Made by a program: the position numbers and the translations under genes. From Hyphomicrobium sp. ghe19 (lineage in GTDB: Bacteria; Pseudomonadota; Alphaproteobacteria; Rhizobiales; Hyphomicrobiaceae), in NCBI RefSeq assembly GCF_902712875.1, contig NZ_LR743509.1, positions 2,556,001 to 2,620,000 on the forward strand: 64,000 nt of DNA. Direction: 5' to 3'. Under the pieces are notes generated by a model. The model did no database searches. It saw only the letters and a program-made list of their open reading frames with translations, and had not been told where the DNA came from. This document shows, piece by piece, positions 35,134 through 56,034 of this stretch; within the stretch, counting starts at the first letter, position 1, and every line of letters starts with the position of its first letter.

Positions 35134-35150
35134 TACCCTGCCCGAACTCT

Positions 35151-35181: not shown

Positions 35182-35209
35182 AAAGACGGGCTGTTTCAGG
35201 CTCGTCTTT
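35182..35209 (+). terminator. Rho-independent terminator near the phage left end
   Basis: AAAGACGGGC (35182-35191) pairs with GCTCGTCTTT (35200-35209) over 10 bp with one G-T pair; TTTT closes the 3' side. It would stop host transcription entering from the tRNA-Cys promoter, or a short phage leader RNA. Confidence 0.75.
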
Positions 35210-35223
35210 TCGTTTCTGCTGTT

Positions 35224-35239
35224 ATCTCACACGTGTGAG
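35224..35239 (+). promoter_or_regulatory. Palindromic site CTCACACGTGTGAG, copy 1
   Basis: The 14 bp at 35226-35239 form a perfect palindrome, preceded by TAT. It lies 47 nt before the RNA polymerase start codon and is the first of four sites with the consensus TAGCTCAC-N3-TGTGAG. Its place suggests control of the polymerase gene. Confidence 0.6.
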
Positions 35240-35285
35240 GGATATTTAGACAAACCCCTTCGTGTGACAAATCTGGAGACAATCG

Positions 35286-37799
35286 GTGACAATTCAAAAT
35301 ACCCAGGCCCTAAGCAGGCAGTTGGCGCTTGAGAATGAGATGCGTGAGTACGGTGCTCAACGCTTCCGTAGGAGCATGGAGAAGGCGACCAAGAACAAGC
35401 GCGGTGCCGAAACCGAGCCGGGAATGGCACTCATCCGGGAGGCCATCCTTCCCCTCTCCAAGGAGATCGAAGCGTGGCGTGAGGAGTGTGCTTCAGGGAG
35501 GGCTGGACGGAGGCATGCTGCCTACAAGCTGGTGGAGATACTGCCAGCCGATGTCATCGCCTTCGTCACCATCAAGGTTCTAATCAATTCCGCCATAAGT
35601 GGCTCCCCTCTGACCTACAGCTACACGTCCATAGGGACAGCGCTGGAGGATGAGGCTTGGTGCAAGGAGCTTGCGACGAAGGACCGTGGCCTGATGGACA
35701 ACATGGTCAAGAACCTGAAGCGACGCGGCGTGACCACTAGGAAGAACCGTAGGGCGATGCTGAAGGTTGCTCCCAAGATCAAGGACATCGAACTCAAGAC
35801 CAACTGGGGGAACCGTCAGACGGTGATCGTAGGGTCTCTCTTTGCTCACATGGCGTTCACTGTGACCGGCTTCTTCGAGACGCCTACCCTGTCCAAGGGA
35901 AAGCGGGAGCAGCTGGTCCTGAGGTTCTCAGAGAAGGCTAACGAGTGGTTCGAGAAGCGGAAGGAGTTTGGTGAACTACTGCACCCTTTAGCACTGCCTA
36001 TGATCGTACCTCCTAGTCCTCGCACAGGTGACCTCACGTCAGGTCCGTACTTCTCAGCAATGAAGAGACCACACACCCTCGTGAAGCGACTGCGCAAGGA
36101 TCACGTGAAGACGCTCGAAGGTGCAAACCTCACCAAGGTTGTAAAAGCCATCAACCACCTGGATCAGACCTCATGGAAAATCTCAACGCCCGTCCTGGAT
36201 GCACTAGCTGCACTCTGGCAGGCCGGTCATCCCATTGCAGGGCTTCCAGCACGTGAGGAGCTTCCACTCCCTGAGCGTCTCTCCTGGATGATCGAAGAGG
36301 ATAAGCGACTAGGGAAACGCAGCAAGGCACAGCTGAAGAAGACCAAGAAGCGCCTCACCAAGAAGCAGGAGAAAGAACTCAAAGAATGGAAGGTCGCTAG
36401 CGTTCGCGTTCGCGAGAAGAACAACCTAAGCCGGTCTAAGCGTATCTCGATTGAGAGGCTGATGGAGGTAGCTCAGAAGTTCCGTAACGAGAAGGCGCTG
36501 TACTTCCCACATGACCTAGACTTCCGTGGTCGCATCTATGACATCCCGACGGGACTGCACCCACAAGGCGCTGACTATGCACGTGGGATGCTGGTGTTCG
36601 CTGAAGGTAAGTATGTGCGCAACACTGAGGCGATGCACTGGCTGATGATCCATGGTGCCAACACCTACGGCTACGACAAGGTTGGCTTTCCAGATCGCGT
36701 ACAGTGGGTGAAAGACCACATGAAGCAGATAGCTGCGACGGTCGAAGACCCTATTGGCAATCTCTGGTGGGCTGAAGCGGACAAACCATTCTGCTTCCTC
36801 GCATGGTGCTTCGACTACATGGGTGTTCTGTCAGGTGAACCGTCCTACATCCCGGTAGCGATGGATGGAAGCTGCAATGGTCTACAGCACTTCAGCGCGA
36901 TGCTACGTGACGAGATTGGAGGACGTGCAGTCAATCTGGTTCCTGGTGACGTACCCTCGGACATCTACGCGGAAGTAGCCAAGCTGGTCACCACCAAGTT
37001 GGAGCGTGAGGTGGAGGAGGAACTTGCTGATCACTGGATGGCGGAAGAGTGGCTGAAGCTAGGTATCAACAGGAAGCTCACTAAGCGTCCTACTATGGTG
37101 ATGCCTTATGGTGGTCAGCTTACAGCTACCATGCAGTACGTCGAAGATGCCTACAGGGAGTCTATGGATGGGAAGGAGTCACCCTTTGGCCATGACGAGA
37201 GACGTGCCTGTGTGCATCTCGGTAAGCACGTCCACCACGGTATCCGTGAGGTCGTCATAAAAGCTGCTGAGGCTATGAAGTGGCTACAGCAGGTAGCACG
37301 CGTCATCGCTAGCAACGATCTCCCTATCAAGTGGACAACACCTTCAGGCTTCATCTGCTACCAAGCCTACCGCAATACCAAGTTGCTATCCATTGAGACG
37401 TACCTCAGTGGACGCATCAAGAAGAAGATTTACATCCGGGAAGACCAACCAGGGATGTCAGTCAACAAGATGTCTACAGGTATCGCTCCCAACTTCGTGC
37501 ACTCCCTGGACGCAACAGCGTTGATCCTCACGGTCAACTCAGCAGCGAAAGAAGGAGTTACTCACTTCGCTATGATCCACGACAGCTACGGGACGCACGC
37601 TGCTGATACCGCTCAGTTGGCGTACACACTCCGTGAGCAGTTCGTGAAGATGTACTCTAAGCACGATGTGCTGAAGGACTTCCTGGACGAAGTGAAGACG
37701 TACCTTCCTGAAAAGGAATGGGAGAAACTACCGCCACTACCAAGCAAGGGAATGTTGGACCTCCGACAGGTGTTGGACTCTGAGTTCTTCTTTGCCTGA
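35286..37799 (+). CDS. Phage single-subunit DNA-directed RNA polymerase (T7 gp1-like)
   Basis: The 837-residue enzyme transcribes the phage middle and late genes from its own promoters. It is close to T7 gp1 in length (883) and similar along its whole span. The catalytic residues are conserved: Asp527 in MDGSCNGLQHFSAMLRDE, Lys600 and Tyr608 in TKRPTMVMPYGG, Asp766 in HDSYGTHA. The C-terminus LDLRQVLDSEFFFA matches the T7 'foot'. Start GTG 35286 has TGGAGA upstream. It is the first gene of the phage, next to the attachment site. Confidence 0.98.
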   Translation: MTIQNTQALSRQLALENEMREYGAQRFRRSMEKATKNKRGAETEPGMALIREAILPLSKEIEAWREECASGRAGRRHAAYKLVEILPADVIAFVTIKVLINSAISGSPLTYSYTSIGTALEDEAWCKELATKDRGLMDNMVKNLKRRGVTTRKNRRAMLKVAPKIKDIELKTNWGNRQTVIVGSLFAHMAFTVTGFFETPTLSKGKREQLVLRFSEKANEWFEKRKEFGELLHPLALPMIVPPSPRTGDLTSGPYFSAMKRPHTLVKRLRKDHVKTLEGANLTKVVKAINHLDQTSWKISTPVLDALAALWQAGHPIAGLPAREELPLPERLSWMIEEDKRLGKRSKAQLKKTKKRLTKKQEKELKEWKVASVRVREKNNLSRSKRISIERLMEVAQKFRNEKALYFPHDLDFRGRIYDIPTGLHPQGADYARGMLVFAEGKYVRNTEAMHWLMIHGANTYGYDKVGFPDRVQWVKDHMKQIAATVEDPIGNLWWAEADKPFCFLAWCFDYMGVLSGEPSYIPVAMDGSCNGLQHFSAMLRDEIGGRAVNLVPGDVPSDIYAEVAKLVTTKLEREVEEELADHWMAEEWLKLGINRKLTKRPTMVMPYGGQLTATMQYVEDAYRESMDGKESPFGHDERRACVHLGKHVHHGIREVVIKAAEAMKWLQQVARVIASNDLPIKWTTPSGFICYQAYRNTKLLSIETYLSGRIKKKIYIREDQPGMSVNKMSTGIAPNFVHSLDATALILTVNSAAKEGVTHFAMIHDSYGTHAADTAQLAYTLREQFVKMYSKHDVLKDFLDEVKTYLPEKEWEKLPPLPSKGMLDLRQVLDSEFFFA

Positions 37800-37803
37800 T
37801 TAG

Positions 37804-37817
37804 CTCACTGCTGTGAG
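37804..37817 (+). promoter_or_regulatory. Palindromic site CTCACTGCTGTGAG, copy 2
   Basis: Preceded by TAG and placed 5 nt after the polymerase stop codon. CTCAC and GTGAG form the arms around TGCT. A second dyad (GGGGGT/ACCCCC, about 37825-37845) follows at once. It lies at the boundary between the polymerase gene and the DNA-metabolism genes. Confidence 0.6.
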
Positions 37818-37836
37818 ATTCTCATGGGGGTGAGCA

Positions 37837-37859
37837 ATTACCCCCTAGTCATGCAAGAC
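37837..37859 (+). promoter_or_regulatory. ATTACC(C)CCTAGTCATG(C)AAGAC box
   Basis: Of 23 nt, 21 are shared with 50026-50048, and both lie a short way downstream of a CTCAC/GTGAG palindrome and just before a start codon (here 22 nt from ATG 37882). With no coding role and two well-conserved copies at transcription-unit boundaries, it is a good candidate for the promoter read by the phage polymerase. Confidence 0.5.
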
Positions 37860-37881
37860 CACACAAACGAGGGATTGAAAG

Positions 37882-38226
37882 ATGAAAGCTAAGCCGACAA
37901 TGACGCTCCGCTTTGGAGCAGGTCACAATTCACTGACCATCACTGAAGCGAATGGTGAAACCACCTTCGACTTTAATGGAATGCACCGAGACCGTACCGC
38001 TCAAGTGAAACGTATGGCAGTGGAGGCATGGTGCAAGGTGAATGGCGTACCGAATGAAACTTGGTCACGTCAGAGGCTTACGCGTCGTCACTCTTCAAGT
38101 GGGTCTTCTGTAAAACCATCCCACAAGAAGAAAGCTGTTAATGGCAGACGAAAAGCAGAAGTATGTGCGAACCAAAACTCCGAAGGGCATCGCTCAGTAT
38201 CCGTGGATCAACACCCCGGACACTAA
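37882..38226 (+). CDS. Hypothetical phage protein
   Basis: A 114-residue frame with a good start (GAGGGA 8 nt upstream of ATG). The first ~60 residues (GAGHNSLTITEANGETTFDFNG...) look like a compact small domain; the basic C-terminal part runs 86 nt into the SSB gene and may be less constrained. I recognise no family. Confidence 0.55.
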   Translation: MKAKPTMTLRFGAGHNSLTITEANGETTFDFNGMHRDRTAQVKRMAVEAWCKVNGVPNETWSRQRLTRRHSSSGSSVKPSHKKKAVNGRRKAEVCANQNSEGHRSVSVDQHPGH

Positions 38227-38818
38227 GTTCAGCGCTGACGGTGACTTCAAGTGCAACCTCATTGTTCCTGCAAAGGAAGCCAAATCGTTCATTAAGCTGA
38301 TCGATGAGGAAGCGAAGAAGGCCGTTGAATCCTTCAAGGCTAAGGAGAAGAAGCCCACAAAGGGCAAGAAGCCAAAGCCTATTGTCGAAGGTGATAAGCC
38401 CTACTTCGAAGAGCTTGACGATGACGGTGAGCCGACAGGCAACATCATCTTCCGTACTAAGCAGCGTGCGAAGATCACGACGAAGAAGGGTGACGTAATC
38501 GAGAAGTCGATTGTCATCTACGACGCTAAGGGCAAGCGCATACAAGCTAACGTGGGTGGTGGTTCAACGGTCATCTTGGGTGTTGAACTGCCTCACTACT
38601 TTGTTCCCGCGTCCAATGCAGCGGGTGTCTCCCTGCGTCTCCAAGCTGTGCAGGTTCTTGACCTCGTAGAGTTCGGTGGCAACAGCGCCTCAAGCTACGG
38701 CTTTGGCGAAGAAGACGGCTATGAGGGTGAAGCCTACAAACCCTCCAAGTCCAAAAACAATAAGAAAGACTCGGATGACTCGGAAGATGAGTCGGACGAG
38801 GACGAGGAAGTCTACTGA
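38141..38818 (+). CDS. Single-stranded DNA-binding protein (T7 gp2.5-like)
   Basis: The 225-residue protein is placed, sized and built like T7 gp2.5: an OB-type core (GIAQYPWINTPDTKF..., FKCNLIVPAKEAKSFI, GVELPHYFVPASNAAGVSLRLQAVQVL) and a strongly acidic C-terminal tail (KDSDDSEDESDEDEEVY). In T7 this tail binds the polymerase and helicase. It should coat single-stranded phage DNA during replication and recombination. Confidence 0.85.
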   Translation: MADEKQKYVRTKTPKGIAQYPWINTPDTKFSADGDFKCNLIVPAKEAKSFIKLIDEEAKKAVESFKAKEKKPTKGKKPKPIVEGDKPYFEELDDDGEPTGNIIFRTKQRAKITTKKGDVIEKSIVIYDAKGKRIQANVGGGSTVILGVELPHYFVPASNAAGVSLRLQAVQVLDLVEFGGNSASSYGFGEEDGYEGEAYKPSKSKNNKKDSDDSEDESDEDEEVY

Positions 38819-39275
38819 TAGGCAACGGTATCTAACCGACGCCGGTCATCGTTCTGGACTTGAAGACAAGGTGGCAGATCAGTTGGCTCGAAAGGGTCAG
38901 CCGGTCTGCTACGAACTCTTCAAGATCAAATACGATCCCCCCGCTAAGACGCGAACGTACACTCCCGACTTCGTTCTAATTAACGGCATCATCGTAGAAA
39001 CGAAGGGCCGTTTCGTTACTGCTGACAGGCAGAAGCATAAGTTCATCAAAGCGCAGTATCCCAACTTGGTGATCCGCTTTGTATTCTCAAATCCAAATCA
39101 GCGAATCTCGAAGAAGTCTCAGACCACCTACGCAATGTGGTGCGATCAATATGGCTTCGAGTATGCCGCTAAACTAATCCCTGACGCTTGGTTCAAAGAA
39201 AGCCTCACGCCTTCTCAGGTGGAAGCTACCAAGACTGTGTTGGGATGGACCGTGCCACTCAAACGTAAGAGCTAA
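38787..39275 (+). CDS. Endonuclease I, Holliday-junction resolvase (T7 gp3-like)
   Basis: T7 gp3 cuts branched DNA and host DNA. The core matches closely: HRSGLEDKVADQL, YTPDFVLINGIIVETKG (catalytic Asp/Glu/Lys of the PD-(D/E)XK fold), FVFSNPNQRI, CDQYGFEYAAKLIPDAWFKE. Several in-frame ATGs precede the core; 38787 gives 162 residues and a 32-nt overlap with the SSB gene. A longer start at 38676 would lie deep inside SSB and is unlikely. Confidence 0.93.
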   Translation: MSRTRTRKSTDRQRYLTDAGHRSGLEDKVADQLARKGQPVCYELFKIKYDPPAKTRTYTPDFVLINGIIVETKGRFVTADRQKHKFIKAQYPNLVIRFVFSNPNQRISKKSQTTYAMWCDQYGFEYAAKLIPDAWFKESLTPSQVEATKTVLGWTVPLKRKS

Positions 39276-39276
39276 C

Positions 39277-39609
39277 ATGCGAGAACCCGGACTGACGACT
39301 GAAGCCGCAAAGCAAGTAGTTGCTGAGAAGTGCGTCTTCCCCAAGGTCACAGAGAACAGCATAAAAGATCACATCAAAGCTGCTCGTTACCTAGCTGATG
39401 GTTCAACCACCATCTGCATCTTGGAGATGTACAACGGCTTCAAAGTCATTGGTCACAGCACACCTGCTGACATCCGAAACTTCAATGAAGAAGTAGGACG
39501 ACGTTTCGCTTTCGACAACGCCTTCAGACAACTCTGGCAACTCGAAGGGTATCTCCTAAGGGATAAACTTTGGAGCAACCAAGGTCAGAGTTACCAAGGT
39601 GGTCTGTAA
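39277..39609 (+). CDS. Phage gp49/66-family protein (N4 gp49 / Sf6 gene 66)
   Basis: The 110-residue product has the family pattern TTICILEMYNGFKVIGHSTP followed by FDNAFRQLWQLEGYLLRDKL. The family is widespread in podophages and siphophages and has no known function. It starts 2 nt after the endonuclease stop and is followed by a terminator. Confidence 0.75.
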   Translation: MREPGLTTEAAKQVVAEKCVFPKVTENSIKDHIKAARYLADGSTTICILEMYNGFKVIGHSTPADIRNFNEEVGRRFAFDNAFRQLWQLEGYLLRDKLWSNQGQSYQGGL

Positions 39610-39633
39610 GCTACAGGCACACAAACTACCCAA

Positions 39634-39663
39634 GGGGTCATCAGAAATGGTGGCCCCTTTTTT
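39634..39663 (+). terminator. Rho-independent terminator after the gp49/66 gene
   Basis: GGGGTCATC (39634-39642) pairs with GGTGGCCCC (39649-39657), with two G-T pairs, and a run of six T follows. It splits the DNA-metabolism genes into two transcripts, or sets a lower level downstream. Confidence 0.8.
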
Positions 39664-39680
39664 GTCGTCAGGGAGATCGA

Positions 39681-39848
39681 ATGGACATCATCAAGTCTCT
39701 TACCGCAATCGAACAACAGGCCCTCAAGGAACTAGCTGAAGAGAACTTCCGAGAAGCCGTTGAGGCCGTAAAGGCCAAACTGAGAGAGAAGAAGCCGTGG
39801 TGGCATCGTCTCCTCCCCTTCACTGTAACCGTTAAATGGAGAACCTAA
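39681..39848 (+). CDS. Small phage protein, 55 residues
   Basis: Starts at ATG 39681 with GGGAGA 6 nt upstream. The N-terminal two thirds are a charged helix (AIEQQALKELAEENFREAVE), followed by the basic-hydrophobic REKKPWWHRLLPFTVTVKW. No family recognised. It is followed immediately by another short gene. Confidence 0.55.
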   Translation: MDIIKSLTAIEQQALKELAEENFREAVEAVKAKLREKKPWWHRLLPFTVTVKWRT

Positions 39849-40022
39849 ATGTTTGACATCAAGGCCGTCGAAGCAGAGGCCCGCAAGGAAGTTGCTGAAG
39901 AGCAGTCGAAGGCAGCTAAGGAGAAGATCAAGGCATCCCTCAAGACGATTGAGAACGCCAAGAAAGTCCTCACCAACGCTCAGCTGGCACACGAAGTCCT
40001 CCTTAGGGACATCGGAGCTTAA
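39849..40022 (+). CDS. Small coiled-coil phage protein, 57 residues
   Basis: ATG 39849 overlaps nothing and lies directly after the previous stop. The product is almost wholly helical and charged (ARKEVAEEQSKAAKEKIKAS), suggesting a coiled coil. It shares this character with the preceding 55-residue protein. Function unknown. Confidence 0.5.
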   Translation: MFDIKAVEAEARKEVAEEQSKAAKEKIKASLKTIENAKKVLTNAQLAHEVLLRDIGA

Positions 40023-40610
40023 GTGTTTTCCTCACAGAGATTACTTTCGGAACCCGTCCGCGTTCGTTGGGCGGGCTTCGAGAGTGACACCTTACGCCTA
40101 CAACAGAGTGGGTGGTCTATCTCAGCGTGGCAAGATGTAATGCGTGATGGGATGCAGCTGATGCTGAAGCATGATGGTGCTCAGATGCAGGCTGTGTCTC
40201 AACTCATCACGTGGCCTTACAGAGAATACGCCATGCGCCACACGAATATGAGTTTTCGTGAGCTTCCACCAATACACTTCCATCTCATCGGCAAGTCTAT
40301 CACCTACCACATTCATGGTGAGGTCGATTACTCAAACTTCAATCCGATCGATGCAACGCCTCAGTTCATCAATCGTGAAGTGAGGAAGTTGGAAGACCTA
40401 GTTCACTTTGCTCCAGCGTTAGTACGCACCAAGGAGATCATCCTCCCTGAAGAGAGTGTTCCAGAATTGATGGAACGCATCCTGAAGCTTCAACAGCCGG
40501 GACGCGAAGCAGAACTCAAAAGACAGCTACAGGCAGACCGTGAAGGACAGATAGCCGGGACACATCCTAGGCAGAAGTTTCACGCTCAAATCCTCAGCAT
40601 CGCAGCCTAA
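40023..40610 (+). CDS. Hypothetical phage protein, 195 residues
   Basis: GTG start directly after the previous stop codon. The sequence (VRWAGFESDTLRLQQSGWSI, ...PPIHFHLIGKSITYHI..., FAPALVRTKEIILPEESVPE) looks like a folded alpha/beta protein without motifs I recognise. Its position between DNA-binding and nucleotide genes suggests an early or middle function. Confidence 0.65.
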   Translation: MFSSQRLLSEPVRVRWAGFESDTLRLQQSGWSISAWQDVMRDGMQLMLKHDGAQMQAVSQLITWPYREYAMRHTNMSFRELPPIHFHLIGKSITYHIHGEVDYSNFNPIDATPQFINREVRKLEDLVHFAPALVRTKEIILPEESVPELMERILKLQQPGREAELKRQLQADREGQIAGTHPRQKFHAQILSIAA

Positions 40611-40617
40611 GGAACCA

Positions 40618-40722
40618 ATGCACGAACGCTTCTTGTTCGGGCTCATGCTCCTCACCTTCACGGCGTGGGCAGCATTCTCCCTGAACGCAATCACCAACAC
40701 ATTCACAGGAGTCATTCCGTGA
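40618..40722 (+). CDS. 34-residue membrane peptide
   Basis: ATG 40618 follows AAGGAACC. The product is one hydrophobic helix (FLFGLMLLTFTAWAAFSL) and a short tail. Its stop codon overlaps the GTG start of the lipoprotein gene (GTGA), so the two are probably co-translated and may work together at the membrane. Confidence 0.45.
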   Translation: MHERFLFGLMLLTFTAWAAFSLNAITNTFTGVIP

Positions 40723-41000
40723 AGATTCTCATGGTCACCCTTGCAGCATTCATTCTTGCAGGTTGTGACGAACCCAAAGACTTCATCGTTGCATCCCCTG
40801 CTGACCGGGGACCTTATGAGGTCAAGTTCCTCCTGGAGCATGACGGTTGTAAGGTCTTTCGCTTCCGTGACTACGAATACCGATACTTCGTGCGCTGTGA
40901 CGGTGCTTCTTCATCTGGAGCAAGTTGGTCTGAGACGCACCGTGCAGGTAAGACATCACACACAGAGCACTACAGCATCCCGACAGAGGAAAAGAATTGA
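40719..41000 (+). CDS. Small phage lipoprotein, DUF4884-like
   Basis: From GTG 40719 the product has 93 residues with a lipoprotein signal peptide, MKILMVTLAAFILAGC (acylated Cys16). The mature part contains LEHDGCKVFRFRDYEYRYFVRC, the Cys-rich wording of DUF4884 phage lipoproteins. It should be attached to the inner or outer membrane from inside the infected cell or lysogen. Possible roles include superinfection exclusion or lysis; neither is shown. Confidence 0.6.
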   Translation: MKILMVTLAAFILAGCDEPKDFIVASPADRGPYEVKFLLEHDGCKVFRFRDYEYRYFVRCDGASSSGASWSETHRAGKTSHTEHYSIPTEEKN

Positions 41001-41413
41001 AGCACACCCTACATATGTCGCTGGTCCGTAACTTTCATCGGGCCTTTGACATCTCCCCTCCATCAGCACTGACCGTTGATGATGTCCTGAAGCTCCGTGA
41101 CAAGCTCATCGCTGAAGAGACATTGGAAGTACACGGCGCAGTTGAAGAACTCAGGAACGCTCGTAGTCCTGAAGAACTCCTCGAAGCGAAAGCTCACCTT
41201 CTCAAGGAACTTGCAGACCTCCTGTATGTCACCTTTGGATTTGCCGAACTCTTCAACCTTCCATTGGATGAAGCCTTCGTTGAAGTCCATCTGAACAACA
41301 TGAGCAAGCTTGGTCCTAGCGGCAAGCCGATCCGCAGAGAAGACGGCAAAGTTCTCAAGCCTGAAGGTTTCAAAGAGTGTGACCTCAGGCCACTAATTCA
41401 AGGAAGACTATGA
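40997..41413 (+). CDS. MazG/PRA-PH-like nucleoside triphosphate pyrophosphohydrolase
   Basis: The 138-residue all-helical protein has the metal-binding pattern of this superfamily: EETLEVHGAVEEL (ExxxxxxE) and LLKELADLLYVTFGFAELF (ExxD). Such phage enzymes hydrolyse (d)NTPs or alarmones and may shape nucleotide pools. TTG start with GAGGAAAA upstream; it overlaps the lipoprotein stop, and its own stop overlaps the reductase start (ATGA). Confidence 0.85.
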   Translation: MKHTLHMSLVRNFHRAFDISPPSALTVDDVLKLRDKLIAEETLEVHGAVEELRNARSPEELLEAKAHLLKELADLLYVTFGFAELFNLPLDEAFVEVHLNNMSKLGPSGKPIRREDGKVLKPEGFKECDLRPLIQGRL

Positions 41414-43392: not shown

Positions 43393-43450
43393 GTTGGTGG
43401 TTAGCGGTAACAACTCACAGCGGTAAGCTTGTGATGACACCGCTCCCTGA

Positions 43451-48539: not shown

Positions 48540-48627
48540 GGAAGATGACGAAGACCAACTCGACTTTGACGCCAACTGGGCAAAGGCCCTGAGAAAGAAG
48601 TATGGCATCGCAGAGCCCGTCCAATAG
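48424..48627 (+). CDS. Small acidic phage protein overlapping the polymerase end
   Basis: A 67-residue frame begins in another frame inside the polymerase gene (116-nt overlap) after AGGAAA. The part beyond the overlap (EEDDEDQLDFDANWAKALRKKYGIAEP) has the look of a real acidic-then-helical protein and no alternative start. Function unknown. Confidence 0.45.
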   Translation: MKSEDSQPEQLPLLETTTNSNALSQGTTSLETTGLTPTEEDDEDQLDFDANWAKALRKKYGIAEPVQ

Positions 48628-48787
48628 CGGTCCTGTGCCTATAAAGCTGACACTTGTCATAAGCTCCGAATTGTCACTCACGGTGGACACGGTAGCTCGT
48701 GACGAGTGTCACGCTAAGGCAATCATCGCAGCAGCGCACGAAAAGGCAGAACGCCTCAAGGAACTTGAATGGCAAAGAAGCCAGTAA
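48602..48787 (+). CDS. Hypothetical phage protein, 61 residues
   Basis: ATG 48602 follows AGAAAGAAG. The product ends in a charged helix (AKAIIAAAHEKAERLKELEW). It overlaps both neighbours slightly and is one of a chain of short genes before the exonuclease. No family recognised. Confidence 0.45.
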   Translation: MASQSPSNSGPVPIKLTLVISSELSLTVDTVARDECHAKAIIAAAHEKAERLKELEWQRSQ

Positions 48788-49557
48788 CAAAAGCCGTGAA
48801 AGCGGCGACCAAGAAGACGACAAAGAAGCCTACCACTCTCCTAATCGATGGTGACGAGATCATCTGGAAAGTTGGGACTGTGTGTGAGGTAGCCTTCGAC
48901 TGGGGCGATGGTATCTGGACGCTTCATTCCGATGAGGCTGAGGGCATCAAGACCCTGGTGGATACCATCGAAGGTCTAAAGAAGAAGCTAGAAGCGGATA
49001 GCGTAATCATCTGCCTCTCGTCACCTACGAACTTCCGGAAGAAACTTGATGAGACCTACAAGGGCAATCGCAAGGATGTCCGCAAGCCTCTCCTCTTCAA
49101 AGCCCTCAGGAATTACCTTCTCCGGACCTACGTTTGTAACGAAGTCAAAGACTGGGAAGCTGATGACGTTATGGGAACCTTAGCTACACATCCAGAGAAC
49201 CAAGGCAAGGTCATCATCGTCTCTCAGGACAAGGACATGAAGACTATCCCCTGCAAGCTCTACCGTGAAGGTAAGCTGAGAGACATCTCAGTGGAGGAAG
49301 CTCACAGGTTCCATATGTGGCAGACCCTAGTGGGAGACCGCGCGGATGGCTTCTCAGGTTGCCCTAAGGTTGGTGAAGCTACAGCAGATAAAATCCTCGA
49401 CTGTGATGTTGAGGAGATGTGGCCACGAGTCGTTGAGGCGTTCGTGAAGGCAGGTCTCACCAAGAAGGATGCACTCCTTCAGGCACGCCTTGCACGGATA
49501 CTTCAACACGGTGACTACAATCAGAAAACTAAGAAGGTGAAACTTTGGACCAAGTGA
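48769..49557 (+). CDS. 5'-3' exonuclease (T7 gp6-like)
   Basis: Removes primers and helps recombination and packaging. The 262-residue protein has a basic Lys-rich N-terminus, then the PIN/FEN-type acidic motifs LLIDGDEIIWK, VIICLSSPTNFRKKLDETYKGNRK, EADDVMGTLA, VIVSQDKDMKTI and LVGDRADGFSGCPKVGEATA (H3TH region). Length and order match T7 gp6 (300 residues). Confidence 0.94.
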   Translation: MAKKPVTKAVKAATKKTTKKPTTLLIDGDEIIWKVGTVCEVAFDWGDGIWTLHSDEAEGIKTLVDTIEGLKKKLEADSVIICLSSPTNFRKKLDETYKGNRKDVRKPLLFKALRNYLLRTYVCNEVKDWEADDVMGTLATHPENQGKVIIVSQDKDMKTIPCKLYREGKLRDISVEEAHRFHMWQTLVGDRADGFSGCPKVGEATADKILDCDVEEMWPRVVEAFVKAGLTKKDALLQARLARILQHGDYNQKTKKVKLWTK

Positions 49558-50009
49558 AATACTGCACGTTCTGTGGGATGAAGGATTCCCAATGTGAAGG
49601 TGCTGTTGTGGAAATCGAGGGCTGCATCAAGGCCGGTGTCTATGGCATGACGCGTACACAGGCTATGCGTAATCTTCACTCCGCTCCTAAGTGTGTCCAT
49701 GGTTATGTCAGTGAATGTGATCAGTGCGGTAATCCCCCTCAGGTCTCTCACTGCGGACTTGACGCAACTCTCGAAGCTCGTGGCAATCGCTATGGTGAGT
49801 TCAGGGACAACGCTGCTGTAGCTCAGGCTCTCAAGAGGGTCTTCCGTCGCTCAGTCAAATGGGATGACTTGGAAGATCATCAGAAGGAAGCGTTGGACAT
49901 CATCGCTAGCAAGATTAGTCGTCTGCTCAGTGGTGACCCTAACTACCCCGACAACTGGCATGACATCCAGGGCTTCGCAAAGCTTGTGGAAGAACGCTTG
50001 TCTAAATAG
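49545..50009 (+). CDS. Zinc-finger plus DUF6378-like phage protein
   Basis: The 154 residues start from TTG with AAGGTG upstream. The N-terminus has CxxC pairs (YCTFCGMKDSQC, CDQCGNPPQVSHC) that may bind zinc. The C-terminal ~80 residues (RGNRYGEFRDNAAVAQALKR ... HQKEALDIIASKISRLLSGD, NWHDIQGFAKLVEERL) match the DUF6378 pattern, related to nucleotide-modification/MazG-like helical folds. Exact role unknown. It is the last gene before the second palindrome-plus-box boundary. Confidence 0.72.
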   Translation: MDQVKYCTFCGMKDSQCEGAVVEIEGCIKAGVYGMTRTQAMRNLHSAPKCVHGYVSECDQCGNPPQVSHCGLDATLEARGNRYGEFRDNAAVAQALKRVFRRSVKWDDLEDHQKEALDIIASKISRLLSGDPNYPDNWHDIQGFAKLVEERLSK

Positions 50010-50023
50010 CTCACACTTGTGAG
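50008..50023 (+). promoter_or_regulatory. Palindromic site CTCACACTTGTGAG, copy 3
   Basis: The 14 bp at 50010-50023 begin right after the DUF6378 gene stop codon (TAG, part of the consensus TAGCTCAC-N3-TGTGAG). It marks the boundary between replication genes and virion genes. Confidence 0.6.
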
Positions 50024-50025
50024 TG

Positions 50026-50048
50026 ATTACCACCTAGTCATGGAAGAC
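50026..50048 (+). promoter_or_regulatory. ATTACC(A)CCTAGTCATG(G)AAGAC box, copy before the virion genes
   Basis: Differs from 37837-37859 at two of 23 positions, and its core CCACCTAGTCA equals 35151-35161. It ends 7 nt before the ATG at 50056. A natural place for a phage-polymerase late promoter. Confidence 0.5.
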
Positions 50049-50055
50049 TTCGCAA

Positions 50056-50250
50056 ATGATCAAGGCCAAAAAGCCAGCAATTAGCGCAGACCTCCTTGAG
50101 TATCTCGATCACTACTTCCCCAACGCTTGCCCTGACATCAGCACTCCTGATCGTCACGTATGGGCAGCTGTTGGTCAGAGGAACGTAGTTGATCATCTCA
50201 AGTCGCTCCACCAATCGCAGCTGAAGGAAGCTCTGGCTGCGAAGAACTAA
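50056..50250 (+). CDS. Hypothetical phage protein, 64 residues
   Basis: First gene after the late-region box. The product (LLEYLDHYFPNACPDISTPD..., NVVDHLKSLHQSQLKEAL) is probably helical. Small proteins of this type precede gp7.3 in many T7-like phages, but the function is unknown. Confidence 0.6.
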   Translation: MIKAKKPAISADLLEYLDHYFPNACPDISTPDRHVWAAVGQRNVVDHLKSLHQSQLKEALAAKN

Positions 50251-50265
50251 TTGGAGACTTCTCTG

Positions 50266-50493
50266 ATGTGCCTTGGTGCACCGAGAGTGAAATCAACACC
50301 GCCGCCTGCTGCACCTGCACCTGCTCCTGGTGAGTCCGCTCCTACGACGCTGAAGTTTAACGAGGCGTCACAGGATGCAACGAATGCAGAGAACGCACTT
50401 GCGTCTAAACGAAGAGGCCGGAAGGCGTTGCGCATTGACAAGAGTTCTTCTTCGTCAATGGGAGCATCGTCGGGCCTTAACATCCCTAGCTAA
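50266..50493 (+). CDS. T7 gp7.3-like virion protein
   Basis: The 75-residue product (ATG 50266, GGAG 10 nt upstream) has a Pro/Ala-rich N-terminus and the C-terminal pattern RRGRKALRID...GASSGLNIPS, like the GGKKSLSVARSSGGGINI end of T7 gp7.3. It also sits in the same place, directly before the portal gene. In T7 this protein is needed for adsorption/tail assembly. Confidence 0.65.
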   Translation: MCLGAPRVKSTPPPAAPAPAPGESAPTTLKFNEASQDATNAENALASKRRGRKALRIDKSSSSSMGASSGLNIPS

Positions 50494-50507
50494 CTCTTAG
50501 GATACAT

Positions 50508-52091
50508 TTGAGTACCACACAGGGTGTGGCTATGGCTCGTTACGAGGAACTGACGGCTGAAAGGTCGCCAGTCCTCGCTCGGGCACGTCAAGCCGCAACG
50601 CTGACCGTTCCACACCTTCTTCCCCCTGAAGGTCACTCTGGAGCGACGGAGTTGCCAACACCGTTTCAATCAATGGGGGCACGTGGTGTCAGAAACCTTT
50701 CCAGCAAACTTCTTCTAACTCAGTTCCCGCCTAATGTTCCCTTCTTCAAGTATGATCCTGACGAATACATCGTTGAGGCAATCGTACAGAAGGCTGGCAT
50801 TGAAGGACGTGGCGAAGTTGAGAAGGCGCTCTCACGAAGAGAACGTAGCGTCTGTAAAGAGTCTGATAAACTTCAATTCCGTCCAGCAGCATTCGAAGCA
50901 TTCCGCCAACTTCTAGTGGCCGGTAACGTCCTGCTTCATACTCCTGAGGACGGCATCGCACAAACATTCCGCCTAGATCGCTTTGTTGTTAAGCGCGACT
51001 GGGGAGGCAAGGTTCTTGAGATCGTACTTAAGCAGACCTTCTCACCTTCCTCATTACCGCTAGATGCACAAGCCATCATCCAAGGCCAAGACGGCAAGCC
51101 TACGCTTAAGACGGTAGACCTCTATACCTACATCAAGTGGGATGGGAAGAAATTCTATGAGGTCTTCCAGGAAGTCGAAGGTCACGTAATTCCTAGCTCA
51201 CGCGGCAAGTACAAAGAAGACCGCTGCCCGTGGCTTGCACTCAGACTCTCCAAGATCGATGGCGAAGACTACGGTCGTGGCTATGTCGAAGAGTGCTTAG
51301 GAGACCTCATCTCTCTCGAAGGTCTCTCTCAGACTATGGTCGAAGGTTCCGCCGCCGCTGCGAAGATCGTCATCCTTGTGAACCCCAATGGTGTCACGCG
51401 TGAAGATGACATTTCGCAAGCTGAGAATGGCGACGTTAAGACCGGAAAGGCCGATGACGTTCACGTCCTTCAGGCTGACAAGCGCGGTGACTTCGCAGTT
51501 GTCGAAAGTCAGATTGAGAAGTTGGAACAGCGTCTCGCTTATATGTTCCTCCTCAACGCTTCTGTTCAGCGGCAAGGTGAACGCGTCACCGCAGAAGAAA
51601 TTCGTTACATGGCGCAGGACTTGGAAGATGCCCTTGGAGGCATGTACACGGTCCTAGCTCAAGAGTTCCAGCTTCCCCTGGTGTCGTTGTTCTCTGCTCG
51701 AATGGAGAAGCGCAAGGGTGTTCCTAAGCTGCCAAAGGAACTCAACAACCCAACTATTACGACGGGCGTTGATGCTCTTGGCCGTGGTCAAGACCTCAAG
51801 AACCTGGACAACTTCCTTATCGGCCTTGGTGAGAACTTTGGTCCGGAAGTTATCGGGCGCTACGTCAACTTCAGTGAAGCGATTAAGCGGCGTGCTGCTG
51901 CTCTCGGTATTGATACTGAAGGTCTGATCAAATCGGAACAAGAGGTACAGCAAGCAGAGCAGCAAGCTCAGATGACTGACCTCGCAACTAACCTTGGCCC
52001 TGATGCAATCAAGGCTATGGCAAACGTAGGTGGCAATCAACTTCAGGCAGACGCCAAAGTGAAAGCCGCTCAGCTGACCAAGAGGAAGTAA
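50508..52091 (+). CDS. Portal (head-tail connector) protein, T7 gp8-like
   Basis: The 527-residue protein should form the dodecameric portal through which DNA is packaged. It matches gp8 in length (536) and in segments such as ARYEELTAERSPVLARARQAA, GARGVRNLSSKLLLTQFPP, QRQGERVTAEEIRYMAQDLED and PTITTGVDALGRGQDL. TTG start. First large gene of the virion block. Confidence 0.96.
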   Translation: MSTTQGVAMARYEELTAERSPVLARARQAATLTVPHLLPPEGHSGATELPTPFQSMGARGVRNLSSKLLLTQFPPNVPFFKYDPDEYIVEAIVQKAGIEGRGEVEKALSRRERSVCKESDKLQFRPAAFEAFRQLLVAGNVLLHTPEDGIAQTFRLDRFVVKRDWGGKVLEIVLKQTFSPSSLPLDAQAIIQGQDGKPTLKTVDLYTYIKWDGKKFYEVFQEVEGHVIPSSRGKYKEDRCPWLALRLSKIDGEDYGRGYVEECLGDLISLEGLSQTMVEGSAAAAKIVILVNPNGVTREDDISQAENGDVKTGKADDVHVLQADKRGDFAVVESQIEKLEQRLAYMFLLNASVQRQGERVTAEEIRYMAQDLEDALGGMYTVLAQEFQLPLVSLFSARMEKRKGVPKLPKELNNPTITTGVDALGRGQDLKNLDNFLIGLGENFGPEVIGRYVNFSEAIKRRAAALGIDTEGLIKSEQEVQQAEQQAQMTDLATNLGPDAIKAMANVGGNQLQADAKVKAAQLTKRK

Positions 52092-52100
52092 ACTCTCTGT

Positions 52101-52910
52101 ATGACAACTAACAGTTCGCAGGTTCCAGCATCTGAAGGTCTAAGCCCTGGATACACTCCAGCGCCTGACCCCAACAGCCTCGCAGCCGCACAGGCTAAGG
52201 CTGGTATGACGCCTGCAAACAACGCTGAACGTCCAGCATGGCTCCCGCCGAACTTCAACACGCCGGAAGACTTCGTGAAGTCCCATGAGGAACTTCGCGC
52301 TGATCACACTCGCAAGGCTCAAGAACTTGCCGCCCTGAAGAAGGACGGTGACAAAAGCAAGGAACCTCCCACAGATGACAAAGCTGCTAAGGCTCTCACT
52401 GATGCAGGCATTCCTGAAGCTGACATGCAGCAATGGTCCGAGACTTTCTGGAAAACCGGAGAAGTCCCAGCCGATGCTTATGAGAAGCTTGCCGCTGTAG
52501 GTATCTCGAAAGAGATCATTGACGACTACGCTGCTTCACGTTCGCACTTTGTGGAATCTCAGAACACCACATTGCTTAATGCAGGTGGTGGCGAAGAGAA
52601 CGTCAACAAGATGTTCGCGTGGGCTGAGGAGAACCTCAATGAACAGCAGAAGGCCGTATATAACAGAGCATTCGATGGTAATGACTTGAACGCCAAGATC
52701 ATCGCTATGGAAGGACTCAAGTCTAAGTACGAAGCTTCTGAAGGTTTCAACCCTAGCCTCATCAATGGTGGCAACACACCTAATGGTGCTGGTGGCGTTT
52801 ATACGTCTGTTGCTCAGATGCAGGCAGACATGAGTGATGCCCGCTACGCCCTCGACCCTGCGTTCCGCGCACAAGTCGAAGCTAAGCTTGGACGTTCAAA
52901 CATCCTCTAA
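52101..52910 (+). CDS. Capsid assembly scaffolding protein (T7 gp9-like)
   Basis: The 269-residue protein is acidic and mainly helical with a long disordered N-terminus (about residues 1-110), the usual make-up of T7-like scaffolds. The conserved part runs from LPPNFNTPEDFVKSHEEL to the C-terminal YALDPAFRAQVEAKLGRS. It guides capsid assembly and is then released. Confidence 0.88.
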   Translation: MTTNSSQVPASEGLSPGYTPAPDPNSLAAAQAKAGMTPANNAERPAWLPPNFNTPEDFVKSHEELRADHTRKAQELAALKKDGDKSKEPPTDDKAAKALTDAGIPEADMQQWSETFWKTGEVPADAYEKLAAVGISKEIIDDYAASRSHFVESQNTTLLNAGGGEENVNKMFAWAEENLNEQQKAVYNRAFDGNDLNAKIIAMEGLKSKYEASEGFNPSLINGGNTPNGAGGVYTSVAQMQADMSDARYALDPAFRAQVEAKLGRSNIL

Positions 52911-52920
52911 TCAGACTACG

Positions 52921-52948
52921 GAGGGAGTGGCTTCACGGCTGCTCCCTC
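52921..52948 (+). terminator. Hairpin between scaffold and endolysin genes
   Basis: GAGGGAG (52921-52927) pairs with CTCCCTC (52942-52948), with an inner GC/GC pair. The following TCATTCTATTCTT is only weakly T-rich, so this could be a weak terminator or an mRNA processing site. Confidence 0.45.
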
Positions 52949-52968
52949 ATTCTATTCTTGGAGTATCA

Positions 52969-53742
52969 ATGGCTAACAAGACCGGCGCAAAGGGTCTTGA
53001 TCTAATCAAAGTATCTGAAGGCTACCACACTAAGCTTCCTAACGGAGACTGTCTGGCATACCTAGACAAGCTCCCGCGTCCCGTATTCTGGAGCAAAGGC
53101 TATAATGGTCTTTGGACAATCGGATACGGAAGTACCGGCCCTGGCATCACCAAGGGAACCGTGTGGACCAAGGCACAAGCTGAAGCTAACCTTCGTAAAC
53201 GCTTGAAGGAACACGAGGCTGCTCTCAACGCAAAGCAGAAGCAGTATCGCGTCAAACTAGATCAGAACCAATACGATGCTTGCATTAGCGCAAGTTGGAA
53301 TCTCGGACATGCGTCCTCTCTATTCACTGAAGTATTCACACGTCTCAAAGCTGGCGACGAAGACGGCGCTGCTAACGCATTCCTGAAGTACGACCATGCA
53401 GGTGGAGTAAAGGTGAGAGGTCTCACTACCCGCCGCAAGGCTGAGCGCAAGCTCTTCCTGGAGCACACCGAAGACACCCTCTACGAAGCCTCACCTAGAC
53501 TTACTTGGATGAGACGCATTCGTAACTTCGTTGGGTCTCTTGGTATTGGAGCGTACTTCACGTGGGACACCCTCACTCAGGTCAAGGCGTTCACGTCTGA
53601 CCATGCAGGATTGATGCTGCTCATCACTGCGGCACTCCTCTACGTGAGCTTCAAGGCAATCGAATACTTCACTGTACAGGATCACTTCAAAGGGCTGTGG
53701 ACGCCCTCTGGTGATGTCACTACCACAGGAGAAACTGATTGA
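52969..53742 (+). CDS. GH24 endolysin with C-terminal membrane segment
   Basis: A lysozyme-fold (T4-type) muramidase: catalytic Glu17 in VSEGYH, Asp33 in AYLD and Thr56 in WTIGYGST, then the C-terminal signature GGVKVRGLTTRRKAERKLF. After the ~170-residue enzyme follows a ~75-residue extension with a hydrophobic helix (AGLMLLITAALLYVSFKAI). Most GH24 endolysins lack this anchor. ATG 52969 has TTGGAG upstream. T7 itself uses an amidase in the early region; here the enzyme lies between scaffold and capsid. Confidence 0.9.
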   Translation: MANKTGAKGLDLIKVSEGYHTKLPNGDCLAYLDKLPRPVFWSKGYNGLWTIGYGSTGPGITKGTVWTKAQAEANLRKRLKEHEAALNAKQKQYRVKLDQNQYDACISASWNLGHASSLFTEVFTRLKAGDEDGAANAFLKYDHAGGVKVRGLTTRRKAERKLFLEHTEDTLYEASPRLTWMRRIRNFVGSLGIGAYFTWDTLTQVKAFTSDHAGLMLLITAALLYVSFKAIEYFTVQDHFKGLWTPSGDVTTTGETD

Positions 53743-54131
53743 GCTTTATCACTCAATACTTCCCGTGGGTTGGCGGACTATCGCTGACGGCAGTCCTGCT
53801 GTTGGCAACGTTTGCTCCGTCCACTCTTAAGTTCGCTTTCACGATTGCCGCTGAGTTTCTCACTCCCGTCGCCAAGAAGGTAGGCGAGAAGTTTGCTGCG
53901 TATCTTGATGCTGTGTTGGAAGGTGCTGCTGATTGCCTCGACAATTGGAAGAGCATCCTCTTCGTGGCTACCGTCGCAGGTTTCTCTGGATGGTACTTTC
54001 ACACGTCAACTGAGAGGTGCTTCGATATGGTCCGCAAGGACTGGAAGCTCACTCCACGAACTAACGTGACTAAGGTTGTGAAAGAGGAAGACCCTCTCAC
54101 CACTTTCTTCCGAAACTTCGGACTACGCTAA
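53739..54131 (+). CDS. Small membrane protein, holin or spanin candidate
   Basis: The 130-residue product (TTG start overlapping the endolysin stop) has an N-terminal hydrophobic region (GGLSLTAVLLLATFAP, then LKFAFTIAAEFL) and a second segment (SILFVATVAGFSGWYF), with a charged C-terminus. Position directly after the endolysin suggests a lysis role such as holin. Topology alone cannot tell holin from spanin. Confidence 0.6.
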   Translation: MSFITQYFPWVGGLSLTAVLLLATFAPSTLKFAFTIAAEFLTPVAKKVGEKFAAYLDAVLEGAADCLDNWKSILFVATVAGFSGWYFHTSTERCFDMVRKDWKLTPRTNVTKVVKEEDPLTTFFRNFGLR

Positions 54132-54204
54132 GTCACTCTAGTACGCACTCTAGAGCGTGACCGGGCGTTATCTGGCGACGTTGGGGAGAGACCCATACAG
54201 CAAG

Positions 54205-54289
54205 GAGGCAGGGGCCTCGACCATCGACGGCACATCGGTAAGACTCGGGTGTGTACGTCAGATTGTTGTAGCACACCAAACCCTGCCTC
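54205..54289 (+). ncRNA. Possible structured RNA in the gap after the lysis cassette
   Basis: In a ~200-nt gene-free gap, GAGGCAGGG (54205-54213) pairs perfectly with CCCTGCCTC (54281-54289). Inside, GGTGTG (54248-54253) pairs with CACACC (54272-54277). The long-range closing stem suggests a folded RNA element or processing site. No known RNA family is recognised. Confidence 0.35.
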
Positions 54290-54328
54290 TACGCCCACTC
54301 CAAGATCAACCAAGAGGGAACTGTTGCA

Positions 54329-54592
54329 ATGAGCTTAGCTCTCGCTAAGTCGCACCGCTTTGTCATTCGCAATGAATACAACAACTACGTTGCTCATCGC
54401 GGCCATGACTCATTTGGAACTTTCAGAAACTACACGGGCAAACTCTCAGAGGCCCGCATCTACATTCGTGAGAGTGATGCTTCACGCGTCGCCTCTCTGC
54501 TGGACCACGACTATGGCGGCAAGCACACGCTGGTGCCCCTCACGCTCGTGATGATCGAAGAAAACAAATCCGGTGAAGCCGGTAACACCTGA
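54329..54592 (+). CDS. Hypothetical phage protein, 87 residues
   Basis: The product (FVIRNEYNNYVAHRGHDSFG..., SEARIYIRESDASRVASLL) looks soluble and folded. No family recognised. It follows the structured gap and precedes a membrane protein gene. Confidence 0.6.
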   Translation: MSLALAKSHRFVIRNEYNNYVAHRGHDSFGTFRNYTGKLSEARIYIRESDASRVASLLDHDYGGKHTLVPLTLVMIEENKSGEAGNT

Positions 54593-54613
54593 AGTCAAAC
54601 AAGAGGTACTAAC

Positions 54614-54790
54614 TTGAAAATGGGTTTCCTGAACATTCTCACGCTGATCTTTGTAACGCTCAAGCTGCTAGCAGTTGGGGTGGTCGCAACGTGGTCATGG
54701 TGGTTAGTGTTCGCTCCTACGCTGCTCAGCATAGGTGTCTCCATTCTCGTTCTCTTTGTCGTGCTCATCATCGCATGGTGGGCTGACTAG
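54614..54790 (+). CDS. Two-span membrane protein, 'Fragile-X-F'-like phage family
   Basis: The 58-residue product (TTG 54614 after AAGAGGT; ATG 54620 also possible) is nearly all hydrophobic: ILTLIFVTLKLLAVGVVATW, a WSWWLVFAPTLLS turn, and ISILVLFVVLIIAWW. This wording matches small phage 'transmembrane Fragile-X-F' proteins. A second holin or an inner-membrane accessory are both possible. Confidence 0.6.
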   Translation: MKMGFLNILTLIFVTLKLLAVGVVATWSWWLVFAPTLLSIGVSILVLFVVLIIAWWAD

Positions 54791-54796
54791 CAGGTT

Positions 54797-54820
54797 GCCT
54801 GAAGTGAAATACCTTCAGGC
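54797..54820 (+). promoter_or_regulatory. Hairpin upstream of the major capsid gene
   Basis: GCCTGAAG (54797-54804) pairs with CTTCAGGC (54813-54820). No T-run follows, so it is not a simple terminator. In T7, hairpins in such places are cut by RNase III and stabilise the capsid mRNA; the same is inferred here. Confidence 0.4.
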
Positions 54821-54883
54821 TCCCCATTCGGTCTTGCTCAAGTCCGTTCCCGGAAATGCGTTGCCTCTCACTAGAGGGGCGCA

Positions 54884-54988
54884 ATGGGAACCACGGAACG
54901 TACTGCAAGAACCGTGACCCTCAAGCTTAAGGCTCCACAAGTAGGACGCACAGAGCTTGAGGACAATCCGTGTTCTTCGACGGTCTGA
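54884..54988 (+). CDS. Possible 34-residue peptide before the capsid gene
   Basis: ATG 54884 has AGAGGGG 5 nt upstream, and the frame ends 33 nt before the capsid start. Product is basic-polar (TTERTARTVTLKLKAPQVGR). It could be a leader peptide coupled to capsid translation or chance. No family recognised. Confidence 0.3.
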   Translation: MGTTERTARTVTLKLKAPQVGRTELEDNPCSSTV

Positions 54989-55020
54989 GGTCAAAAACCT
55001 CACTCCACGGAGACACACAA

Positions 55021-56016
55021 GTGGCTAACGCTACTCCTACCCGCCTTGGTGCAATTAACGGCACCGTTGGCAACTACGCTAATGAAAACGCCCTCTTCCT
55101 CAAAGTGTTCTCTGGTGAAGTCCTAACGGCCTTCGCCAACAAGACCGTGACTGCTGACAAGCACATGGTCCGAACGATCACTTCCGGCAAGTCCGCACAG
55201 TTCCCGCGAACTGGCCGCACTGGTGCTGGTTATCACACCCCCGGTGCTGAGATTGTTGGCCGCATTATCAAAGGCAACGAGAAGATTATCACGATCAATG
55301 ATCTTCTCCTCTCTGACATCTTCATCTCGAATATCGATGAGGCCAAGAACCACTATGACGTTCGTTCGATCTATTCGAGCGAAATGGGTATCGCGCTTGC
55401 AAATCAGATGGACAAGCACGTGCTCCAGACTTTCATTCAGGCTGCTCTGGTAACCACTCCGGACATCACTGGTGAGTCTGACATGGTGGGTACTGTCATT
55501 GACAACGCCTATCTTGGCGGTTCCGCTAACATGGCGACTAATGTTGATGACTTGATCGCTGCCATCTTTGAAGCTGCCGAAGCACTTGACGTTAAGAACG
55601 TCCCTGAAGAGGGTCGAAACATCTTCGTCAAACCGGATACGTATTACCGTCTTGCGAATAGCTCGAAGGTAATTCACGGCGACTTCGGCAACGCCGGTAA
55701 CGGCTCGACTGCTTCAGGTAAGGTGTTCCGCGTTGCGGGTATGCCTATCGTGAAGACCAATAACCTCCCGTCTAGCAACATCACCACTGGTGTTGAGGCA
55801 GGCTCGGAGAACCGTCAAGCTGTGGACGCCCGTAATACGGTCGCCGTCATTGCTCATCCTTCTGCGGTGGGCACGGTCAAGCTGATGGACCTCAGCACTG
55901 AAATGGAATGGGACATCCGCCGTCAGGGAACCCTGATGGTTGCGAAGTACGCCGTTGGACATGGTGTCCTCCGTCCTGAAGCATCCGTGCTTCTGCGAAC
56001 GGCAACGCCTGTCTAA
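55021..56016 (+). CDS. Major capsid protein (T7 gp10-like)
   Basis: The 331-residue HK97-fold protein begins MANATPTRLGAINGTVGNYA from GTG 55021 (GGAG 11 nt upstream); the longer frame from 54970 is not needed. Typical stretches are ALFLKVFSGEVLTAF, HTPGAEIVGRI and EMEWDIRRQGTLMVAKYAVGHGVLRPEA. T7 gp10A has 345 residues. The gene is followed by a terminator, as in T7. Confidence 0.95.
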   Translation: MANATPTRLGAINGTVGNYANENALFLKVFSGEVLTAFANKTVTADKHMVRTITSGKSAQFPRTGRTGAGYHTPGAEIVGRIIKGNEKIITINDLLLSDIFISNIDEAKNHYDVRSIYSSEMGIALANQMDKHVLQTFIQAALVTTPDITGESDMVGTVIDNAYLGGSANMATNVDDLIAAIFEAAEALDVKNVPEEGRNIFVKPDTYYRLANSSKVIHGDFGNAGNGSTASGKVFRVAGMPIVKTNNLPSSNITTGVEAGSENRQAVDARNTVAVIAHPSAVGTVKLMDLSTEMEWDIRRQGTLMVAKYAVGHGVLRPEASVLLRTATPV

Positions 56017-56018
56017 TT

Positions 56019-56034
56019 AGCTCACCCCTGTGAG
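56019..56034 (+). promoter_or_regulatory. Palindromic site CTCACCCCTGTGAG, copy 4
   Basis: The 14 bp at 56021-56034, preceded by TAG, begin 4 nt after the capsid stop codon and 22 nt before the terminator hairpin. It lies on the boundary between capsid and tail genes. Confidence 0.6.

Follow-up and report, generated by a model that had tools for sequence, protein, structure and literature searches.

Bacteriophage T7 serves as the model for strictly lytic phages. By what means the temperate phages related to it silence a self-amplifying RNA polymerase is the question addressed here for a T7-like prophage of Hyphomicrobium sp. ghe19, in which a family of palindromic DNA sites lies at the boundaries of gene blocks. 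The stretch analysed, hereafter the window, comprises 64,000 nucleotides (nt) of the 4.6-Mb chromosome (G000:C1:2556001-2620000; 4,616,147 bases), and coordinates above 64000 continue its numbering via L071 and L098. MarR control near the polymerase promoter of temperate T7-like phages has already been proposed. The authors of the LUZ100 study suggested that the phage promoter ahead of the polymerase gene is under repression by a MarR-like protein, and credited MarR binding sites flanking this promoter to Boeckman et al. (PMC10134795). The present locus resembles LUZ100 and Pasto in that a regulator gene precedes a tyrosine integrase gene upstream of a T7-like polymerase gene, and one of the palindromes occupies the place before the polymerase gene envisaged in that proposal; it differs in that sites also follow the polymerase and capsid genes and precede the virion and terminase genes (PMC10134795).

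MarR-like regulators acting on palindromic motifs near promoters have likewise been proposed to hold lysogeny in Helicobacter pylori prophages, a different phage group in which the palindromes are AT-rich (PMC11321410). In mycobacteriophage L5, repressor sites occur both in promoter regions and in short gaps between genes throughout the phage genome (PMC9283540), a layout with which the original prediction compared the present sites. This likeness to L5 stoperators holds as an analogy only: L5 is described as carrying more than 20 asymmetric 13-mers bound by a monomer, whereas the window phage has six nearly symmetric sites, together with a gene for a MarR-type protein (PMC9283540).

The palindromes are probably operators of the prophage's own 121-residue MarR-type repressor. 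They cluster in the prophage, change in both arms in the nearest relative and are distinct from the motif assigned to the phage polymerase, and the regulator has a predicted MarR fold. The sites at late-gene boundaries appear to be new: no earlier report was found in the literature searched, outside which lies the work of Boeckman et al. (2022), which may describe part of them. Added here are these late-boundary sites, the separation of operator from promoter and the paired change of both arms.

Palindromic sites and their change in the nearest relative

A scan of the window found the 17-mer without mismatch at 37801, 50007 and 56018 and with one mismatch at 35223 (TATCTCAC), bearing out the four palindromes first noticed by a sequence reader; the coordinates used in Table 1 are the starts of the 14-bp core, 3 bases to the right. 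With up to 3 mismatches the window contains 14 matches against 4.69 expected (standard deviation 2.21), a count reached in 0 of 100 shuffles, both strands being counted and several matches being the two strands of one palindrome. Extending the motif search beyond the window, as had been suggested, gave two further exact cores in the prophage (sites 5 and 6). Throughout the genome, the exact pattern CTCAC-N3-TGTGAG occurs on the plus strand at seven places, six in the prophage and one in host DNA (667295); four minus-strand matches are the opposite strand of four of the six prophage sites, and the reversed pattern, used as a control, has 2 matches genome-wide.

All six sites are intergenic on a gene map built from tblastn hits. 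Short unassigned open reading frames (ORFs) overlap the sites at 50010 (52 codons) and 74803 (84 and 46 codons) on the plus strand, and those at 35226, 50010 and 70715 on the reverse strand. The original description of the four window sites, each adjoining a stop codon or within a leader, is accurate. In non-coding prophage DNA, the count of which relies on the same gene map, CTCACA-N2-TGTGAG with up to 2 mismatches has 11 copies, compared with a maximum of 4 in 40 dinucleotide shuffles; two weaker copies lie near site 6 (74754 and 74833). The five outer base pairs of the core are symmetric in all six sites. A left-hand TA is likewise present in all six, and each of its two bases is mirrored on the right in four. 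The common orientation originally ascribed to the sites therefore has a basis in this TA, the only directional element, and is otherwise weak because the core is nearly symmetric. A scan of IMG/VR with the 17-mer gave 72 stretches with one match apiece, a number for which no expectation was computed. Two weak early-region copies, CTCACAACTGTCAT and CTCACTCTTGTCAG at 76188 and 76861 (L071:12688 and 13361), combine a left arm of the window-phage type with a right arm nearer to that of the relative described next.

The closest relative, IMGVR_UViG_3300037466_000534 (G060), has a polymerase 79% identical to that of the window phage. At four places matched by gene order, it carries the counterparts GTGACAGGTGTCAT, GTGACAACTGGCAC, GTGACAACTGTCAT and GTGACAACTGTCAC. 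Half-site position 3 has changed from C in the window phage to G in G060 in both arms of all four; at position 1 the left arm has changed from C to G in all four, with the mirrored base in the right arm of two and T in the other two. Such a paired two-arm change fits a symmetric dimer and not an asymmetric polymerase promoter. The search of G060 gave 12 matches with up to 2 mismatches, seven of which were used, and these have G or A at position 1 and G at position 3 in both arms; one of them (1154) falls within a 99-codon ORF, close to its start. Left out were 938 and 3640 (2 mismatches), 16558 and 19477 (within phage-gene homologues) and 41752, where a frame read by eye as HNH-like has conserved coding letters that form a palindrome; 2254, a match from a separate search, was set aside as too weak. 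As the seven were found by palindrome matching, symmetry can be judged fairly only from the four sites matched through gene order. Near the left end of the relative's genome there is also a run of short repeats (ACCTAGCAGCGC-like units; L008, about 115-245).

A candidate MarR-type repressor

The small repressor gene predicted to lie right of the window has a candidate in a MarR-type gene just before the integrase gene (Table 1). Profile A2, made of nine regulators, matches MarR chains with a best E value of 8e-6; a match to phrog_9665 has an E value of 1.6e-21, and the protein is predicted to have the winged-helix MarR fold. A first AlphaFold job with three sequences gave a poor model (pLDDT 47.1) and was not used.

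Together with the two-arm change in G060 and the near-absence of the sites from host DNA, this gene favours the operator or stoperator option of the original prediction. Binding of the regulator to these sites in dimeric form is inferred by us, as are all the regulatory effects described below. A different protein that forms dimers, encoded by either phage or host, might occupy the sites instead, as several early phage proteins have no known function and the link between regulator and sites is drawn by us. We regard this as unlikely: a host regulator should have host targets, yet just one exact site lies outside the prophage, and the MarR-type protein is the sole match to transcription regulation among seven right-hand proteins scanned, a part of the phage's proteins that includes the integrase and the terminase.

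Promoters assigned to the phage polymerase and the proposed action of the candidate operators

A second motif, separate from the palindromes, occurs at 37837, 50026, 67109 and 73000, that is, following the polymerase gene, ahead of the first virion genes, close to the 3' end of a long gene (62440-67407) at the place that gene 16 has in T7, and to the right of the terminase gene. In position, the only respect compared, these places correspond to the annotated T7 promoters phi1.1A, phi6.5, phi17 and phiOR. Eight phage promoters of LUZ100 were mapped by ONT-cappable-seq (PMC10134795); all except phi5 contain ATTACCACACAG-K-Y-H-TGG, and the window motif ATTACCCCCTAGTCATG is of that kind. At promoter position -8, the window phage has C and all four G060 promoters have T, while the polymerase residue aligned to T7 758 is K in the former and Q in the latter. 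T7 RNA polymerase residues 756 and 758 are those that we take to read promoter positions -9 and -8. Among seven phages, the pairs of residue 758 and base -8 are Q-T (T7, gh-1, RHEph21 and G060), K-C (window phage), L-A (LUZ100) and D-G (Pasto), the RHEph21 (6 copies) and Pasto (2 copies) promoters having been found via this motif rather than annotated; CRP-804, Lo5R7ANS and HTVC021P were aligned at residue 758 and have no assigned promoter. Because of its likeness to the LUZ100 promoters and its variation with residue 758, we assign the separate motif of ATTACCCCCTAGTCATG type, and not the palindromes, as the promoter of the phage polymerase. Among IMG/VR sequences the promoter pattern was found in three stretches, of which two belong to G060 and the third to a different contig. 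In G060, the counterparts of operators 2 and 3 lie 2 and 4 nt upstream of clear phage promoters.

Downstream of operator 1 the promoter match is weak (Table 1), since with 3 mismatches allowed the pattern finds matches at unrelated positions and on the minus strand as well. A 12-mer, AACCCCTTCGWG, has exactly two copies in the prophage (35253 and 70745), 13 and 16 nt after operators 1 and 5, and is possibly a second promoter type. The DNA following these two operators has the 10-mer AACCCCTTCG in common, which is only suggestive, as 17 of 300 random draws shared at least 10 letters.

The other option of the original prediction, that the palindromes themselves are promoters of the T7-like polymerase, was at first favoured here, because the T7 promoter core CTCAC-TATA-GGGAG can be aligned, spacing included, with CTCAC-N4-GTGAG. 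Some palindromes also lie where T7 and gh-1 have promoters, the polymerase specificity loop differs between the window phage and G060, and the T7 core (L104) is itself a pseudo-palindrome (CTCACTATAGGGAG), so that dyad searches pick up T7's own promoters. We nevertheless give this option very little credence and take the likeness to the T7 core as chance. The features of a T7-family promoter belong to the separate motif, which fits promoters mapped by sequencing, lies at T7-comparable places and covaries with residue 758; the G060 palindromes lack the CTCAC core and have changed in both arms, which binding by a monomeric polymerase does not explain; and a transcript starting at site 4 would meet a terminator-like hairpin after no more than about 60 nt. 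SP6-like and N4-hairpin readings of the relative's sites were dropped on the same grounds of a separate motif and a change in both arms. Just as little credence goes to action in RNA as terminator or processing hairpins, for although site 4 folds well (-12 kcal/mol, z -5.84) before a terminator-like hairpin and a terminator pattern flags site 6, the fold z-scores of sites 1 to 6 (-0.93, -1.49, -2.24, -5.84, -0.83 and -0.47) fall below -3 at one site only, no consistent U run follows the stem across the six, and terminator scans covering three of them flagged one, site 6.

On our best reading of the sequence, then, operators stand beside phage promoters at sites 2 and 3 and weakly at 1 and 5, with site 6 in the early region and site 4 before the capsid terminator. 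A regulator dimer would bind the half-sites CTCACA and TGTGAG. In the lysogen, the early region would be silenced through site 6 together with the weaker copies 74754 and 74833, and site 1 would block expression of the phage RNA polymerase. Sites 2 and 3, and perhaps 5, would hinder the phage promoters heading the middle and late blocks. The interval from the capsid stop codon to the hairpin has no promoter-motif match, and site 4, if functional, must act on elongating polymerase in the manner of an L5 stoperator, presumably as a roadblock to passing polymerases. A promoter scan of the early region around operator 6 found no sigma-70-like promoter, so that control of an early promoter by this operator is a conjecture.

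Several results weigh against the assignment of the palindromes to this repressor, among them some from the survey of other phages below. The regulator scores 14.5 bits against Pfam MarR_2, below the 27-bit cut-off, and one residue in three differs between the regulators of the window phage and G060, with differences beyond the surroundings of the recognition helix. The right arms of two of the four gene-order-placed G060 sites end in T instead of the C that would mirror the left arm, one has an internal G for T, and the wider G060 list owes part of its symmetry to the way it was found. At the place in G060 that corresponds to site 5 there is no clear counterpart, and site 4 has no promoter to repress.

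Dyads in other phages and the setting of the prophage

A strict test, which called for a dyad common to both flanks of the polymerase gene, was passed by two of 38 loci with both flanks available (the window phage and Pasto); G060 failed it. Two broader tests counted dyad families. The first (non-coding DNA, 5-bp arms, 60 shuffles, six annotated phages) gave the following counts, with the null maximum in brackets: Pasto 10 (7), RHEph21 5 (4), LUZ100 2 (4), Lo5R7ANS 4 (6), HTVC021P 5 (9) and CRP-804 4 (4). The second (6-bp arms, up to 2 mismatches, 40 shuffles, ten genomes) gave window phage 11 (4), G060 10 (5), Pasto 11 (5), LUZ100 6 (5), RHEph21 6 (4), CRP-804 5 (4), Lo5R7ANS 4 (4), HTVC021P 4 (6), T7 10 (5) and gh-1 6 (3). 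It is unspecific, because eight of the ten exceed every shuffle, including the lytic controls T7, with its own promoters, and gh-1, with another family; the dyad-family test shows non-randomness, not function. Lo5R7ANS and HTVC021P have a regulator and, in these tests, no clear dyad family.

The top family of G060, TGACAA-N0-TTGTCA, includes two terminal-repeat copies, and GTGACA-N2-TGTCAC has 8 copies; the top family of CRP-804 differs from its TTACG family of the first test. When coding DNA is included, unrelated dyad clusters of 13 to 15 lead in G060, Lo5R7ANS and LUZ100. The Pasto copies (GTCACT-N4-AGTGAC) lie in the early region, just before the regulator gene (5035), and upstream of and after the polymerase gene. 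The distantly related LUZ100 and RHEph21 have smaller, marginal families with the same candidate dyad, ATCCAC-N2-GTGGAT. The LUZ100 copies (L100: 378, 579 and 6691) lie in both mapped early host promoters, P1 and P2, and immediately ahead of phi2; of the RHEph21 copies (L101: 8382, 13867, 18692, 24421 and 37114), one lies after the capsid gene and another ahead of the terminase gene. A further exact copy, 16299, lies inside a gene.

A MarR-operator rule across temperate T7-like phages is thus possible. Tentatively, and with more doubt than confidence, we suggest that these phages silence themselves by a genome-wide array of MarR-dimer operators, which would close promoters of both the host and the phage type and include roadblocks at the ends of gene blocks, so that a single small repressor would hold down both host polymerase and leaked single-subunit phage polymerase; such an array would be stoperator-like, of independent origin, and its immunity types would diverge by paired change of half-site and recognition helix. 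The locus offers candidate operators, a candidate repressor gene and promoters whose assignment follows their likeness to mapped promoters; with a relative in which both operators and regulator have shifted, the questions of specificity and roadblock become directly approachable.

The T7-like phage starts at about 35 kb of the window, where G+C falls from about 60% to about 52%. A 38-bp repeat (35097-35134 and 80262-80299) bounds both ends and places the integration in a tRNA-Cys(GCA) gene, giving a prophage of about 45.2 kb. The genes named encode RNA polymerase, ribonucleotide reductase, primase/helicase, DNA polymerase, portal and capsid proteins. The T7-like polymerase and gene order, the integrase and the attachment (att) sites identify a temperate T7-like phage (Autographiviridae).

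Table 1. Features of the prophage; positions above 64000 are in continued window coordinates
Feature	Position	Strand	Sequence	Remark
attL core	35097..35134	+		38 bp, 5' half of the intact tRNA-Cys(GCA) at attR
Terminator-like hairpin	35182..35209	+		Upstream of operator 1; scan found 3 vs 2.3 expected, weak alone
Candidate operator 1	35226..35239	none		5' of polymerase gene
Possible degenerate phage promoter	35250..35266	+	ACAAACCCCTTCGTGTG	10 nt after operator 1; 3 mismatches, weak
T7-like single-subunit RNA polymerase gene	35286..37799	+
Candidate operator 2	37804..37817	none	CTCACTGCTGTGAG	Directly after polymerase gene
Phage promoter (-16 to +1), assigned	37837..37853	+	ATTACCCCCTAGTCATG	19 nt after operator 2
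Candidate operator 3	50010..50023	none	CTCACACTTGTGAG	Just 3' of stop codon, before virion genes
Phage promoter, assigned	50026..50042	+	ATTACCACCTAGTCATG	2 nt after operator 3
Major capsid gene	54970..56016	+
Candidate operator 4	56021..56034	none	CTCACCCCTGTGAG	Between capsid stop codon and terminator
Terminator-like hairpin and T run	56057..56088	+		After operator 4; GGGAGAG...CTCTCCC then T6, read by eye
Candidate operator 5	70715			Upstream of terminase gene, directly before unassigned ORF
Candidate operator 6	74803			Early region
Candidate MarR-type regulator gene	78564-78929			121 residues; just before integrase
Tyrosine integrase gene (PF00589)	78933-80033			Directly 3' of regulator gene
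Intact tRNA-Cys(GCA) at attR	80262-80335

The DNA 5' of the restored tRNA gene is phage-borne and by eye contains TTGACA (TTGACT at the same spot in the relative, L008), perhaps a promoter supplied by the phage to tRNA-Cys(GCA). Another genome of the same family has a T7-like polymerase gene with 41% identity over the C-terminal part (G028:C1:225734-228208), possibly belonging to a second prophage.

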